Assembly (NCBI GenBank): GCA_027317185.1
Contig: DAHVFB010000021.1
Span: 1 to 39,201, forward strand
From: Deltaproteobacteria bacterium
Lineage (GTDB): Bacteria; Desulfobacterota; Binatia; Binatales; Binataceae
Direction of reading: 5' to 3'
Length of the DNA: 39,201 nucleotides
Shown here: positions 14,835 to 20,199 of the stretch, in pieces
Position numbering within the stretch: the stretch's first letter is position 1
Layout of the letters: each line of letters opens with the position of its first letter
Notes under the pieces: model-generated
The model's database searches: none
What the model saw: only the letters and a program-made list of their open reading frames with translations
What the model was told of the DNA's origin: nothing
Program-made: the position numbers and the translations under genes

Positions 14835-15857
14835 TCAGATCCTTGTCAGGCTTTTGCGGAGCGCGGCGGCGTTGTCAAAGATCGTGCTCGGCAGGTTAAG
14901 CGTGCCCGCGACATTCGAATATGGGTACAGGCGGGCGTTGATGTGCGCATGCAGCGGCAGACCCTCCCCCTGATGAATTTCATAATCGAGCGGTAGCGGT
15001 CCCAGTACGTGCAGTAATCGCCACAGCAGACGTGCGAAAGATCGCATCTCGGCGGGCGGCAGCTCGATAAGCATTCCGCGTTGCGCCGGCAGCATCACCT
15101 CGTAGCTGCGCGGGAACGCCCCGATCGGAGTCTGAAAGCTAACCGCTTCGCCGTCGCGTTCGAGGACCAATCCCAACCGCTCGATCAGCGCCAGCAGATC
15201 ATCCCAAACGCCCGGATGCTCGCGCTGTGCGCGCAACTCCGCGTCCATCGCGGGCAATACCATCGGCGCACCGATGATCTGTTGATGCAGGTGCGGTTGC
15301 GAGGCGCCCGACTCGCGGCCCTGATTCTTCCGAACCACGACGGAGCGCACAGCCGGATTCTCGAATGCGAGCCGGATAACGCGTGCGTCAGTTTCGATCA
15401 GTTGGAGGAAATGCCGCTCCCCCAGCGCCGCGGTATACATCAGGTCGCTCGCAGTGTGCGGTGAGTCGATGAAATGGCGCGGGTCCTCAATCACGATGTA
15501 GGATTCATTGCGTCCTCCGGTAAGCTCGCTCGGGATGCGCGGGAAAAGATTGTTTACCACCCGGATCATCCAGGGGTCGCTCCGCTCCGTTTCGGTTTCG
15601 TTCAACCTCGAGTATGGATCGATACGAAACAGCTCGCGGGTGGTCATGCTCTCGTTGCCGGGGCAGAACGGGCAACTGCGGGTCGCATGAGCGATCACCT
15701 CGGGACTCAGCGGATGGCCCCGCTCCGGAATGTGCCGATCGCCCAACGTGAACGCGAAGCTCTTTGCGCGCACATCGACAACGTAAGAAATCACGCCCGT
15801 ATGGGGATTCCTAATCCATACCAGTGCGCCGTCGCGAATTTCATACTCAAGTGCCAT
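14835..15857 (-). CDS. galT: Galactose-1-phosphate uridylyltransferase-like protein
   Basis: A 340-residue member of the GalT branch of the HIT superfamily, which transfers UMP between UDP-glucose and galactose-1-phosphate. The zinc pair is Cys62-x2-Cys65 (SCPFCPG). The active-site motif is QPHLHQQ at 187-193, which gives the H-x-H-x-Q pattern with His191 as likely nucleophile. A later zinc/His region includes LPLHAHINARLYPYSN. The ATG at 15857 is chosen; an in-frame TTG at 15878 adds 7 residues, and neither has a clear ribosome binding site. It converges with the GDP-fucose synthase gene. Some family members are ADP-glucose or ATP-dependent nucleotidyltransferases, so the sugar is not certain. 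Confidence 0.8.
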   Translation of the reverse strand: MALEYEIRDGALVWIRNPHTGVISYVVDVRAKSFAFTLGDRHIPERGHPLSPEVIAHATRSCPFCPGNESMTTRELFRIDPYSRLNETETERSDPWMIRVVNNLFPRIPSELTGGRNESYIVIEDPRHFIDSPHTASDLMYTAALGERHFLQLIETDARVIRLAFENPAVRSVVVRKNQGRESGASQPHLHQQIIGAPMVLPAMDAELRAQREHPGVWDDLLALIERLGLVLERDGEAVSFQTPIGAFPRSYEVMLPAQRGMLIELPPAEMRSFARLLWRLLHVLGPLPLDYEIHQGEGLPLHAHINARLYPYSNVAGTLNLPSTIFDNAAALRKSLTRI

Positions 15858-15931
15858 CAGTCGATCATGGTTTAACAACGGCGCTCAATTTTTTTCAACA
15901 TCGCTGTCATCGTGGCCGATTCCGCGTAATC

Positions 15932-15961
15932 TTGACAGCGCGTGGCCGTGTCGGTTATCAA
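15932..15961 (+). promoter_or_regulatory. Sigma-70-like promoter of the aminotransferase-serA leader
   Basis: A perfect -35 hexamer TTGACA at 15932-15937 is followed after 18 bases by TATCAA (15956-15961), a weak but acceptable -10. Transcription would start near 15967, about 110 bases before the aminotransferase start codon and just ahead of a small hairpin and an intrinsic terminator. Confidence 0.5.
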
Positions 15962-15971
15962 ATTTCAAGGG

Positions 15972-16063
15972 GAGCTTCATCGAGGCTCTATAAAGTTGGG
16001 GTCTGGCGCATCCTGAATCAGGAGTGCCAGGCTTTTTTTTGGAATTCATCCTGGTTTTACCAG
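15972..16063 (+). promoter_or_regulatory. Structured leader upstream of the serine operon
   Basis: Three stem-loops can be drawn between the promoter and the start codon. GAGCTTC (15972-15978) pairs with GAGGCTC (15982-15988) across a three-base loop, with one G-T pair. The terminator hairpin lies at 16003-16030. CTGG (16051-16054) pairs with CCAG (16060-16063) just before the GTG start. The aminotransferase has no good ribosome binding site, so control at both termination and translation is possible. An antiterminator fold was not identified with confidence. Confidence 0.45.
16003..16040 (+). terminator. Intrinsic terminator in the leader of the aminotransferase-serA operon
   Basis: CTGGC-gca-TCCTGA at 16003-16016 pairs with TCAGGA-gt-GCCAG at 16018-16030 in a long, nearly perfect hairpin with a one-base formal loop. 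Two bases later comes a run of eight T (16033-16040). This is a textbook intrinsic terminator on the plus strand. It stands only 35 bases before the aminotransferase start codon, and no gene ends upstream on this strand. Confidence 0.8.
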
Positions 16064-16075
16064 TAGTTATAAGCT

Positions 16076-17230
16076 GTGCCACCAATTAAAAAATATTTGT
16101 TCACTCCCGGTCCCGCGCCGGTGCCGCCCGAGGTATTGCTCGAGATGGCGCGGCCGATCATTCATCATCGCACTCCGGAATTCAGCGCAATCCTCGATCA
16201 GGCGCGCGAACGCATGCAGCCCCTGATGGGTACCTCGCAAGAGGTGATCCTGCTGGCTTCGAGCGGCAGCGGCGCGATGGAAGCCGCGGTCACCAACCTG
16301 CTTAAACCCGGCGATCAGGCGGTGTTCGTCGATGGCGGCAAGTTCGGCGAGCGCTGGGGCCGGTTGCTCTCGGCGTATGGCATGACCGGCCATCGGATCA
16401 AGGTGGAATGGGGACAGGCGGTGCGTCCCGAACAGGTCGAGGAAGCGCTTACGGCGCATCCTGAGTCCCGCGCGGTATTCATGCAGACGAGCGAGACTTC
16501 CACCTGCGCGATCCATCCGGTGGCCCGGATTGGCGGGCTTACCCGGCGGCGCGACGTGATGCTGGTGGTCGATGGTATCACCTCGGTCGGGGTGTTCGAC
16601 CAGAAAATGGACGAATGGGGCGTCGATGCGCTCCTGACCGGCAGCCAGAAGGCGCTGATGCTGCCGCCGGGGCTCGCGATGATTGCGCTATCGGACCGCG
16701 CTCTCGCACGGGCCAAAGAGGTCAACACGCCGAAATTCTATTTCGATCTCCTGCGCGAACTCCGGCTCCAGCGCGACGAACATACCACCGCCTGGACCCC
16801 GGCGGTTTCGCTGATTGCCGGGTTGAACAAATCGCTCGAAATGATTCTCGCCGAAGGACTGCCGGCCGTCTTCGCGCGGCATCAATTGATGGCTGAAGCG
16901 GTACGGGCGGCGGCGCCGGCGCTCGGCCTCAAACTCATCGCGCCTGAAAATCCCGCTCCCGGCGTAACCGGCCTGCTCACGCCTTCCGCGATCGATAGCG
17001 GTAAGGTGGTTCGCCATATGCGCGACGTGCTCGGGGTCTCCGTTCAGGGCGGGCAGGATCACATGAAGGGCAAGCTGGTCCGCATCGGACATATGGGTTA
17101 TGTCAGCCCGTTTGACATGCTGATCGCGATCGGCGCGCTCGAAATTGCGCTGCAGCAGGCTGGGCATCATAATTTCGAGCCGGGCGCGGGCGTAGCGGCG
17201 GTGCAAAAACGGATCGAACGGGGCGTATGA
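16076..17230 (+). CDS. Class V PLP aminotransferase, probable phosphoserine aminotransferase role
   Basis: A 384-residue PLP enzyme of the alanine/serine-glyoxylate aminotransferase type. The N-terminus KYLFTPGPAPVPPEVL, the SSGSGAMEAA phosphate cup at about 62-71, Asp166 in VVDGITS, and the PLP lysine Lys192 in TGSQKALMLPPG are all visible. It sits 4 bases before serA. In organisms without a canonical SerC, an enzyme of this type beside serA is taken to convert 3-phosphohydroxypyruvate to phosphoserine; that role is inferred from context here. The GTG at 16076 is chosen because conserved sequence begins at once, although the ribosome binding site is poor. Expression is probably governed by the leader just upstream. 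Confidence 0.88.
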   Translation: MPPIKKYLFTPGPAPVPPEVLLEMARPIIHHRTPEFSAILDQARERMQPLMGTSQEVILLASSGSGAMEAAVTNLLKPGDQAVFVDGGKFGERWGRLLSAYGMTGHRIKVEWGQAVRPEQVEEALTAHPESRAVFMQTSETSTCAIHPVARIGGLTRRRDVMLVVDGITSVGVFDQKMDEWGVDALLTGSQKALMLPPGLAMIALSDRALARAKEVNTPKFYFDLLRELRLQRDEHTTAWTPAVSLIAGLNKSLEMILAEGLPAVFARHQLMAEAVRAAAPALGLKLIAPENPAPGVTGLLTPSAIDSGKVVRHMRDVLGVSVQGGQDHMKGKLVRIGHMGYVSPFDMLIAIGALEIALQQAGHHNFEPGAGVAAVQKRIERGV

Positions 17231-17234
17231 GCCA

Positions 17235-18830
17235 ATGGCGGCGAAGTTTCGTATCTTGTTGAGCGATTCGCTCTCGGATCAGGGAATCGAAGTCCTGCGG
17301 CAGTACCCACAGATCAGTTTCGACCACAAAACCGGGCTCAAGCCCGCCGAGTTGACTGCTATCATCGCGGCCTACGACGGACTCATAATCCGCAGCGGAA
17401 CCAGGGTTACCCGCGAAGTGATCGAGGCGGCGGATTCACTCAAGGTGATCGGGCGCGCCGGCGTGGGGGTCGACAATGTCGATCTCGACGCCGCGACCCG
17501 GCGCGGGATCGTGGTGATGAACAGTCCGGTCGGCAACAGCGTGACCACGGCCGAGCATGCGATTTCGATGCTGATGGCGCTGACGCGGCACATTCCCGCC
17601 GCGAATGCGTCGATCCGGGCCGGCAAATGGGAGCGCGGCAAATTCACCGGGACCGAGGTCAGCAACAAGACGCTGGGCGTGATTGGACTGGGGAATATTG
17701 GACGAATCGTCGCCGATCGCGCGATCGGCCTGAAAATGAAGGTGATCGGTTTTGATCCGATCCTGACCGCGGAGGCTGCCGCGCGCGTCGGAGTCGAGTT
17801 GGTCGCGCTCGACGAACTGTTCAAGCGCGCCGACTTCATCAGCGTCCATACGCCATTGACCGACGACACGCGCGGAATCGTGGGCCACGCCGCTTTTGCA
17901 CTGATGAAGAAAGGCGTGCGGATAATAAATTGCGCCCGCGGCGGAATCGTCGATGAGCAGGCGCTGCATGAGGCCCTGATGTCGGGCAAGGTGGCCGGCG
18001 CGGCGCTCGATGTCTTCGTCGAGGAACCTCCCGCGCCGGACAATCCGCTGCTGAAGCTCGACAGCGTAATCGCCACCCCGCATCTGGGCGCTGCCACGGA
18101 CGAAGCGCAGGTGCAGGTGGCGATCGATATCGCGCATCAAATCGTCAATTTTTTGCTGGAAGGGACTATCCAGCATGCGGTCAATATCCCCGCGCTCTCG
18201 ACGCCCGAACTGGAAAAACTCGAACCGCATCTTCGGCTCGGCGAAAAACTGGGCGTGTTCCTGAGCCAGGTGATCGATGAAGCGCCGACAAAGGTGACCG
18301 TCGGGCTCGGTGGCGAGGCGGCTGGACTTAAGGCCGAGACCATCACCGCCTCGGTGCTCAAGGGCCTGCTGGCGGGCTTCATGGATCAGCCGTTGAATTT
18401 TGTGAACGCCCCGTACATCGCGCGCGAACGAGGAATCAAAGTGACGGAAACCCGCTCGCGCGAGACCACTGACTTCGTCAACACGCTCACGGTTACGGTC
18501 GAGACTTCGGCCGGCATCCATGAGGTGAGCGGCACGGTTTTCGGCAATCGCACCTTACGTTTGGTTCGCATCGACGGTTATCGGGTCGAGGCGGTGCCCG
18601 AGGGCTACTACCTGATGCTGCATAATCGCGATGTGCCGGGCGTGGTCGGCGCGATCGGCACGATGCTGGGGAAGTCCAACATCAATATCGCAGGGCTTGA
18701 ACTCGGACGCGATCGGATCGGCGGACTGGCGCTGAGCCTGGTCGAAGTGGATGAACCGGTGCCGAACGAAATGCTCGAACGGCTCAAGACTATCCCGGCG
18801 ATAACTACCGCCGCATTTATCAAATTCTGA
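17235..18830 (+). CDS. serA: D-3-phosphoglycerate dehydrogenase (long form with ACT domain)
   Basis: Catalyses the first step of serine synthesis, oxidising 3-phosphoglycerate with NAD. At 531 residues it is the long form. The N-terminal catalytic domain contains GRAGVGVDNVDLDAATRRG. The NAD loop is GVIGLGNIG at about 147-155. Catalytic Arg, Glu and His lie in NCARGGIVDE, FVEEPPAPDNPL and TPHLGAATDEAQ. The intervening ASB-type domain follows from about 320 and a C-terminal ACT domain runs from about 455 (YYLMLHNRDVPGVVGAIG), where serine feedback usually acts. It follows the aminotransferase directly, forming a serine operon, with purA 73 bases downstream. Confidence 0.97.
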   Translation: MAAKFRILLSDSLSDQGIEVLRQYPQISFDHKTGLKPAELTAIIAAYDGLIIRSGTRVTREVIEAADSLKVIGRAGVGVDNVDLDAATRRGIVVMNSPVGNSVTTAEHAISMLMALTRHIPAANASIRAGKWERGKFTGTEVSNKTLGVIGLGNIGRIVADRAIGLKMKVIGFDPILTAEAAARVGVELVALDELFKRADFISVHTPLTDDTRGIVGHAAFALMKKGVRIINCARGGIVDEQALHEALMSGKVAGAALDVFVEEPPAPDNPLLKLDSVIATPHLGAATDEAQVQVAIDIAHQIVNFLLEGTIQHAVNIPALSTPELEKLEPHLRLGEKLGVFLSQVIDEAPTKVTVGLGGEAAGLKAETITASVLKGLLAGFMDQPLNFVNAPYIARERGIKVTETRSRETTDFVNTLTVTVETSAGIHEVSGTVFGNRTLRLVRIDGYRVEAVPEGYYLMLHNRDVPGVVGAIGTMLGKSNINIAGLELGRDRIGGLALSLVEVDEPVPNEMLERLKTIPAITTAAFIKF

Positions 18831-18903: not shown

Positions 18904-20199
18904 ATGCAAACAGTGGCGGTGATCGGCACGCAGTGGGGCGACGAGGGAAAAGGGAAAATTGTCGATTTGCTGGCCGCGGATGCGGCCGTGGTGGTCCGCT
19001 TTCAGGGCGGCAACAATGCGGCGCATACGCTGGTGGTCGGCGGTGAAAAATTCATCCTGCGAATGGTCCCGGCCGGCGCGCTGCATCCGGGCAAGACCTG
19101 CGTGATCGGCAACGGGATGGTGGTCGATCCGTTTGCGCTGGTCGAAGAGATCGATCGGCTGAAGAAACATTCGCAACTGAGCGATCCCGCCCTGCTGAAG
19201 ATCAGCTACGATGCGCACCTGGTGATGCCCTATCATCAGGCTATCGATCGCGCGCGCGAAGAGCGGCTCGGCAAACGCAAGGTCGGCACTACCGGCTTCG
19301 GAATCGGTCCGGCTTACGAGGACAAGATGGCGCGGTCGGGACTGCGTTTCGCCGATCTGGCAAGTCCGGCGGCCTTCAAAAGCCGGCTCGAGTACAATCT
19401 GAAGGAAAAGAATCTCTATCTTAAAAATGTGCTCAAGGCCAAGCCGGTCGACGGCCGCCGCCTGCTTGCACAGATTGCTCCGATGCGGCGGCGGCTGATG
19501 CCTTATCTGGCCGATACCGCCGCGCTGGTCGCGGGTGTAGCCGCGGAAGGCAGAAAGATTCTGTTCGAGGGCGCGCACGGCACCATGCTCGACATCGATC
19601 ACGGCACCTATCCTTACGTGACCTCGTCAAGCTGCCTCGCCAGCGCGGTTTTTTCGGGCGGCGGCCTGCCGCCGGGGCGCCTCGACGCGGTGCTTGGAAT
19701 CAGCAAGGCCTATACTACCCGCGTGGGCGGCGGTCCGTTTCCCAGCGAGATCAAGGGCGCTCTGAGCGATCGTTTGCGCGAAGAGGGCAACGAGTTCGGC
19801 AGCGCGACCGGGCGTCCGCGGCGGGTCGGATGGTTCGACGCAGTATCGGCGCGCTATGCCGCGCGGCTCAACGGGATGTGGGGACTGGCGCTGACCAAAC
19901 TCGACGTGCTGACGGGCGTGAATCCGCTGCGTATCTGTTACGCCTATCAAATTGGATCGAAGCGCTACGACGAAATGCCGCCAAGCTGCCTCGCACTCGA
20001 TAAGGTTCGGCCGCTTTACGAAGAACTGCCGGGCTGGGATGAAAACCTGGGCGAGGCGCGATCGCTGGCGGAGTTGCCGGAGAACGCGCGCCGCTATCTC
20101 GATCGAATCGCGCAGCTAAGCGGGGTGAAACTGGCGATGGTCGGAGTGGGCGCGGCCCGCGAGGCGATCATCATTCTCGAGAATCCATTCCTGAACTGA
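18904..20199 (+). CDS. purA: Adenylosuccinate synthetase
   Basis: Joins IMP and aspartate with GTP to adenylosuccinate, the committed step to AMP. The 431-residue length is normal. Motifs seen: the P-loop GTQWGDEGKGK at about 8-18, QGGNNAAHTLV (commonly GGHNAGHT), GIGPAYEDKMAR, GTMLDIDHGTYPYVTSSS, TTRVGGGPFPSE, GRPRRVGWFDA and the guanine-binding LTKLDVLTG. The catalytic His of the AHT segment is kept. The Arg in the E. coli GTTGRG loop is Phe here (TGFGIGP). It probably shares the serA transcript, although the 73-base gap could hold its own promoter. The ATG at 18904 has only a weak GAAGAAA site. Confidence 0.96.
   Translation: MQTVAVIGTQWGDEGKGKIVDLLAADAAVVVRFQGGNNAAHTLVVGGEKFILRMVPAGALHPGKTCVIGNGMVVDPFALVEEIDRLKKHSQLSDPALLKISYDAHLVMPYHQAIDRAREERLGKRKVGTTGFGIGPAYEDKMARSGLRFADLASPAAFKSRLEYNLKEKNLYLKNVLKAKPVDGRRLLAQIAPMRRRLMPYLADTAALVAGVAAEGRKILFEGAHGTMLDIDHGTYPYVTSSSCLASAVFSGGGLPPGRLDAVLGISKAYTTRVGGGPFPSEIKGALSDRLREEGNEFGSATGRPRRVGWFDAVSARYAARLNGMWGLALTKLDVLTGVNPLRICYAYQIGSKRYDEMPPSCLALDKVRPLYEELPGWDENLGEARSLAELPENARRYLDRIAQLSGVKLAMVGVGAAREAIIILENPFLN

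Follow-up and report, generated by a model that had tools for sequence, protein, structure and literature searches.

Why does an intrinsic terminator stand directly before a serine synthesis operon in a bacterium of the soil-dwelling family Candidatus Binataceae (hereafter Binataceae)? The DNA that raises this question, a stretch of 39,201 nucleotides here called the window, belongs to a 4.1-Mb draft genome. Its forward strand carries a gene for a class-V aminotransferase of the AGXT/BhcA-like type (16076–17230), whose orthologues are 68–83% identical across the family, followed by serA (3-phosphoglycerate dehydrogenase, 17235–18830; TIGR01327, 673 bits), which is the next gene in all 30 loci checked. 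The purA gene (adenylosuccinate synthase, 18904–20199; NF002223, 563 bits) lies on the same strand and probably shares the operon. Upstream, on the reverse strand, is a gene (14835–15878) with weak similarity to DUF4921 that looks like a galactose-1-phosphate uridylyltransferase gene. Most relatives, too, have a divergent frame of about 1050 bases as their upstream neighbour; an initial annotation had noted no gene ending ahead of the terminator. Assignment of the terminator to an upstream gene was rejected because this neighbour is divergent in most loci.

A predicted promoter and terminator precede the aminotransferase gene

The initial annotation placed a TTGACA box at 15932 and a near-perfect terminator at 16003–16040, and both are present. 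The -35 box TTGACA (15932–15937, forward strand), read directly from the sequence, is separated by a 17-nucleotide spacer from a -10-like box, TTATCA (15955–15960), and transcription is expected to start near 15967–15970. Relatives keep TTGAC and carry TTATCC. In all 26 aligned leaders TTGAC lies 94–106 nucleotides 5′ of the T-run, with the -10-like box at the usual spacing.

The terminator is a G+C-rich stem-loop (15999–16032) that directly abuts a U-tract of exactly eight T residues (16033–16040), and it is positioned between the first gene and the promoter, the latter predicted from sequence. Folding gives -24.4 kcal/mol with a z value of -5.2, and no shuffled sequence reached this stability. 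The end of the T-run is 35 nucleotides from the GTG start of the aminotransferase gene at 16076. A simple consensus scan picked up neither the promoter nor the terminator stem, which is bulged. No clear ribosome binding site is visible before the GTG (16041–16075), and several relatives seem alike in this respect.

Two smaller hairpins had also been proposed. The one originally placed at 15972–15988 folds in this genome as an 8-bp hairpin, P1, at 15971–15989 (GGAGCUUC-AUC-GAGGCUCU, loop AUC; -10.3 kcal/mol, z -3.2), but it is only weakly kept in relatives (mean z -0.7), where its sequence and register differ between genera. The other, a start-site hairpin at 16051–16063, did not survive scrutiny: it is weak (-4.8 kcal/mol, z -1.6, with 11 of 200 shuffles equally good) and lies outside the conserved unit, in the region 3′ of the T-run, where the aligned relatives are without sequence conservation.

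A covarying terminator stem recurs across Binataceae

We tracked the aminotransferase through 57 genomes and read the upstream DNA for 34 family members, 26 of which have the promoter–terminator arrangement. Their leaders follow a common plan: TTGAC(T/A), a -10 box TTATCC, a variable stretch of 35–45 nucleotides, and then GGGGTCTGGCG-N-TCCGC...GCGG-N-CACCAGGC-TTTTTTTT-G. In nearly all relatives the eight T residues are followed by a T-free sequence that opens with G. A covariance check on the stems, proposed in the initial annotation, finds the terminator stem conserved and covarying in relatives. Specifically, five pairs have changed on both sides, the compensatory changes are located in the upper half of the stem, the covariation score exceeds those of all 500 shuffles, and 93.5% of stem cells are paired compared with 28–52% in slid registers.

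A covariance model of the leader (R1) matches 31 of the 41 Binataceae genomes, once in each and always before the aminotransferase gene; the match in the window spans 15962–16043 (E 9e-12). The sole match elsewhere in the class (G114) is an ordinary terminator after groEL and was rejected as a chance match rather than a family member outside Binataceae, and 395 genomes of the phylum gave no match beyond the family. The occurrence of one unit per genome before one gene, together with the lack of any credible match outside the family, argues that the motif is not a chance hairpin.

Terminator T-runs are usually variable in length. Here the run is exactly eight in 31 of 31 members, a constancy that is partly an effect of selection, as the aligned set was initially chosen by its T8; the model search, which made no strict demand for T8, added five members, all with T8.

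The motif is absent from 10 of the 41 family genomes and is thus dispensable in some lineages. Among these ten, one contig ends inside the gene (G010) and one locus was left out (G058). In genus g3 (L022 and L023), the DNA upstream of the aminotransferase gene holds hairpins or GGGGTCTG remnants; lacking a proper T-run, these look like decayed forms of the Binataceae leader element.

The 5′ arm of the terminator is conserved beyond base pairing

If the arm were kept for pairing alone, both sides of the stem should change alike. Counted on the tree, however, the 5′ arm GGTCTGGCG shows 6 inferred changes in nine columns and the 3′ arm shows 20 in nine columns, for which the one-sided binomial probability of about 0.005 serves as a guide value only, as the columns are not independent. 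For comparison, four-fold codon sites of the neighbouring gene show 7.2 changes per column, far above the rate of the 5′ arm. The conserved segment here, GGGGTCTGGCG, lies at 15998–16008 of the forward strand, mostly within the 5′ arm.

One C of the 5′ arm mostly stands opposite a non-pairing A, yet 24 of 26 sequences retain it (in this genome it is paired). An outer U is likewise mostly unchanged while its partner varies, and the outer pairs are broken in some genera. UGGC is nearly invariant, the exceptions being L017 and L020 with UGGA or UGGU. In a comparison with groEL terminators of the same genomes, whose arms were chosen by eye, pairwise identity of the 5′ arms is 0.94 for the leader versus 0.70 for groEL, and that of the 3′ arms is 0.74 versus 0.72. 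The stricter conservation of GGUCUGGCG relative to its 3′ partner, along with a C kept opposite A, suggests that the 5′ arm probably has a second partner besides its 3′ arm.

Searches for a sensor within the leader

No Rfam family matches the window at the gathering cut-off or at E values up to 10, RF01750 included. The serC RNA motif of Alphaproteobacteria precedes an aminotransferase-serA pair of serine synthesis (PMC7266159), as does the Binataceae leader. The latter, unlike the serC motif, has a clear terminator, and its first gene is of the AGXT class-V type rather than serC. A difference from this motif had been claimed from the outset and is borne out by the lack of any match to its model (RF00517) in the window.

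A serine-specific T-box, T box-Ser, has been described ahead of serC and serA (PMC9481103), and T-box leaders and the Binataceae leader both place a terminator before an amino-acid operon. No T-box (RF00230) was found in 33 Binatia genomes, however, and the leader falls far short of accommodating Stem I and the specifier loop; this identity was rejected. A leader-peptide attenuator was rejected as well, given that the reading frame is not maintained through the stem (modulo 3, the distance between CTGG and the T-run end is split 20, 6 and 5 among 31 sequences) and the aligned leaders share neither a start codon nor a run of serine codons.

The initial annotation had also raised riboswitch-like control. 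In the strict sense of an aptamer within the leader, this suggestion has so far gained no support. Truncated leaders fold with -16.9 kcal/mol versus -16.8 kcal/mol for shuffled sequences, and the 5′ arm is paired at 0.556 versus 0.560; thus, structure in the upstream half does not rise above shuffles, although an aptamer that is short, or tertiary in nature, could go undetected in such a test. Many truncated leaders fold into an antiterminator between leader and 5′ arm, but shuffled ones do so equally, and this candidate was discarded. When arms were swapped between genera, native combinations paired no better, and the aligned leaders yielded no alternative covarying structure able to prevent termination. 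A mini-hairpin inside the 5′ arm, GGGUC-UGGC-GNYCC, was rejected because its covariation equals that of shuffles and it is stable in one genus only.

ZTP riboswitches occupy the same place in related families

Elsewhere in the class Binatia, eight families carry a ZMP/ZTP riboswitch (pfl motif, RF01750) before the same aminotransferase gene, and in seven of these a terminator overlaps the 3′ strand of the riboswitch. Such overlap of a terminator with the 3′ part has precedent among pfl RNAs (PMC2864571). The riboswitch loci (L056–L059, L062, L066, L068–L070 and L125–L150) mostly have such overlapping terminators; those of family f9 (L059 and L149) lack a T-run and may control translation. RF01750 is carried somewhere in the genome by 63 of 145 sampled class genomes and is absent from all 35 Binataceae genomes searched.

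The ZTP riboswitch and the Binataceae leader are alike in gene, place, the order of promoter and intrinsic terminator, and a YCUGG...CCAGG-U6-8 stem. They differ in that the Binataceae leader lacks an RF01750 aptamer and has a pre-terminator stretch about half as long. The leader does not reach the RF01750 gathering cut-off, its terminator does not overlap a 3′ CGCCUGGG strand, and its 5′ arm GUCUGGCG shares only YCUGG with this ZTP-type strand.

Bare leader terminators of the form GCCTGG...CC(A/G)GGC-T6-7, again before the same gene and with no RF01750 match, are found in family f5 (L181–L196) and at L036. The f5 loci resemble the Binataceae leader in having a promoter, a short leader and a terminator, but differ in stem sequence and loop, are separate in the aminotransferase tree and include decayed members: the U-tract is poor in L181–L183 and none is visible in L187. 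The f5 5′ arm opens with GCCUGG, the letters of the riboswitch 3′ core. In the aminotransferase tree, Binataceae form one clade among riboswitch-bearing families, with weak support for the deep branches. Descent of the Binataceae terminator from a ZTP expression platform is plausible, and loss of the aptamer with retention of the terminator, probably twice, would be the simplest account. The likeness to a ZTP platform consists of short GC-rich stems, and convergence could account for it.

A model for control of the operon, and its alternatives

The covarying stem, the fixed distance to the promoter, the mostly divergent neighbour and the presence of ZTP riboswitches at this place in other families together make attenuation-type control of the aminotransferase-serA operon, as proposed in the initial annotation, well supported by comparative sequence evidence. 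On balance we favour, with moderate confidence, a transcription attenuator that occupies the former place of a ZTP riboswitch and whose read-through is set by a trans-acting factor. If this model is correct, RNA polymerase would initiate at the TTGACA/TTATCA promoter, yield an RNA of about 70 nucleotides and halt at the terminator, which is presumably active in the cell, unless termination were prevented; read-through into the aminotransferase-serA(-purA) operon would follow. In Binataceae the ZTP aptamer would be gone or replaced and the terminator retained, and read-through would now most likely be set by a protein or another RNA that captures the emerging 5′ arm GGUCUGGCG. Regulated read-through and a trans-acting factor are both expected under this model: with no leader structure, arm hairpin, frame, T-box or Rfam family found, a trans-acting protein or RNA is the most likely reading left.

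The conserved 5′ arm also bears on whether the terminator regulates at all. As a remnant of the lost ZTP aptamer, it might simply lower expression to a fixed level and sense nothing, in line with the failure to find an aptamer or antiterminator, the bare terminators retained in family f5 and the loss or decay of terminators in some lineages. Such a constitutive brake is unlikely, as it would require only a stable stem, and conservation of the 5′ arm goes further than pairing demands, with its C opposite A and, in some genera, its broken outer pairs. We regard as improbable a new small riboswitch in which the 35–45 nucleotides before the terminator and the 5′ arm bind a ligand in place of the ZTP aptamer. 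The partly conserved 5′ GGACG and GCAUU/ACAUC stretches, the strictly conserved GGGGUCUGGCG and the metabolic setting of the operon (serine, one-carbon and purine) would suit a ligand sensor; the folds no more stable than shuffles, the 5′ arm paired no more often, the arm swaps that do not weaken pairing and the variable 5′ hairpin argue against one.

Less probable still is a trans-acting small regulatory RNA, with the operon served by the same promoter through read-through. A single-copy RNA of about 70 nucleotides at a fixed position, with two hairpins and a U8 end, has the appearance of one, but its conserved sequence sits in the terminator stem rather than in a single-stranded seed, and the 29–58 nucleotides between T-run and start in most loci leave little space for a separate promoter. 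The terminated product of about 70 nucleotides would exist in any case. Ribosome-mediated attenuation is barely credible: an 80-aa open frame ending at 16066 does cross the leader in this genome, but the inconstant reading frame and the lack of a shared start codon or serine-codon run speak against a leader peptide.

A more specific proposal, which we consider a long shot, is a minimal aptamer-less sensor in which GGGUCUGGCG of the terminator 5′ arm is bound by a protein or RNA, for example by the GCCA of uncharged tRNA-Ser on UGGC. GCCA is the end expected for tRNA-Ser, and its complementarity to the UGGC of the 5′ arm is a lead only; such a match would recall the T-box. A tRNA-sensing platform outside the T-box family exists in the Xanthomonas SAM-I leader, which responds to uncharged tRNA (PMC7270179) but, unlike the Binataceae leader, acts on translation and retains its aptamer. 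If the 5′ arm did bind uncharged tRNA-Ser, serine shortage would turn the operon on, and T-box-like logic would have shrunk to a terminator arm where a ZTP riboswitch was lost.

Implications

The association of ZTP riboswitches with the aminotransferase-serA operon of Binatia is absent from the literature compared. In Binataceae the serine operon has a real, family-wide leader, predicted to act as an attenuator, whose terminator appears to have survived where the known sensor did not. On one operon, the class thus offers a natural series that runs from a ZTP riboswitch with a terminator in most families, through a bare, strictly conserved terminator in two families, to decay in some genera. 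This series lets one ask about the fate of an expression platform whose aptamer has disappeared, and about other ways in which it can be operated.
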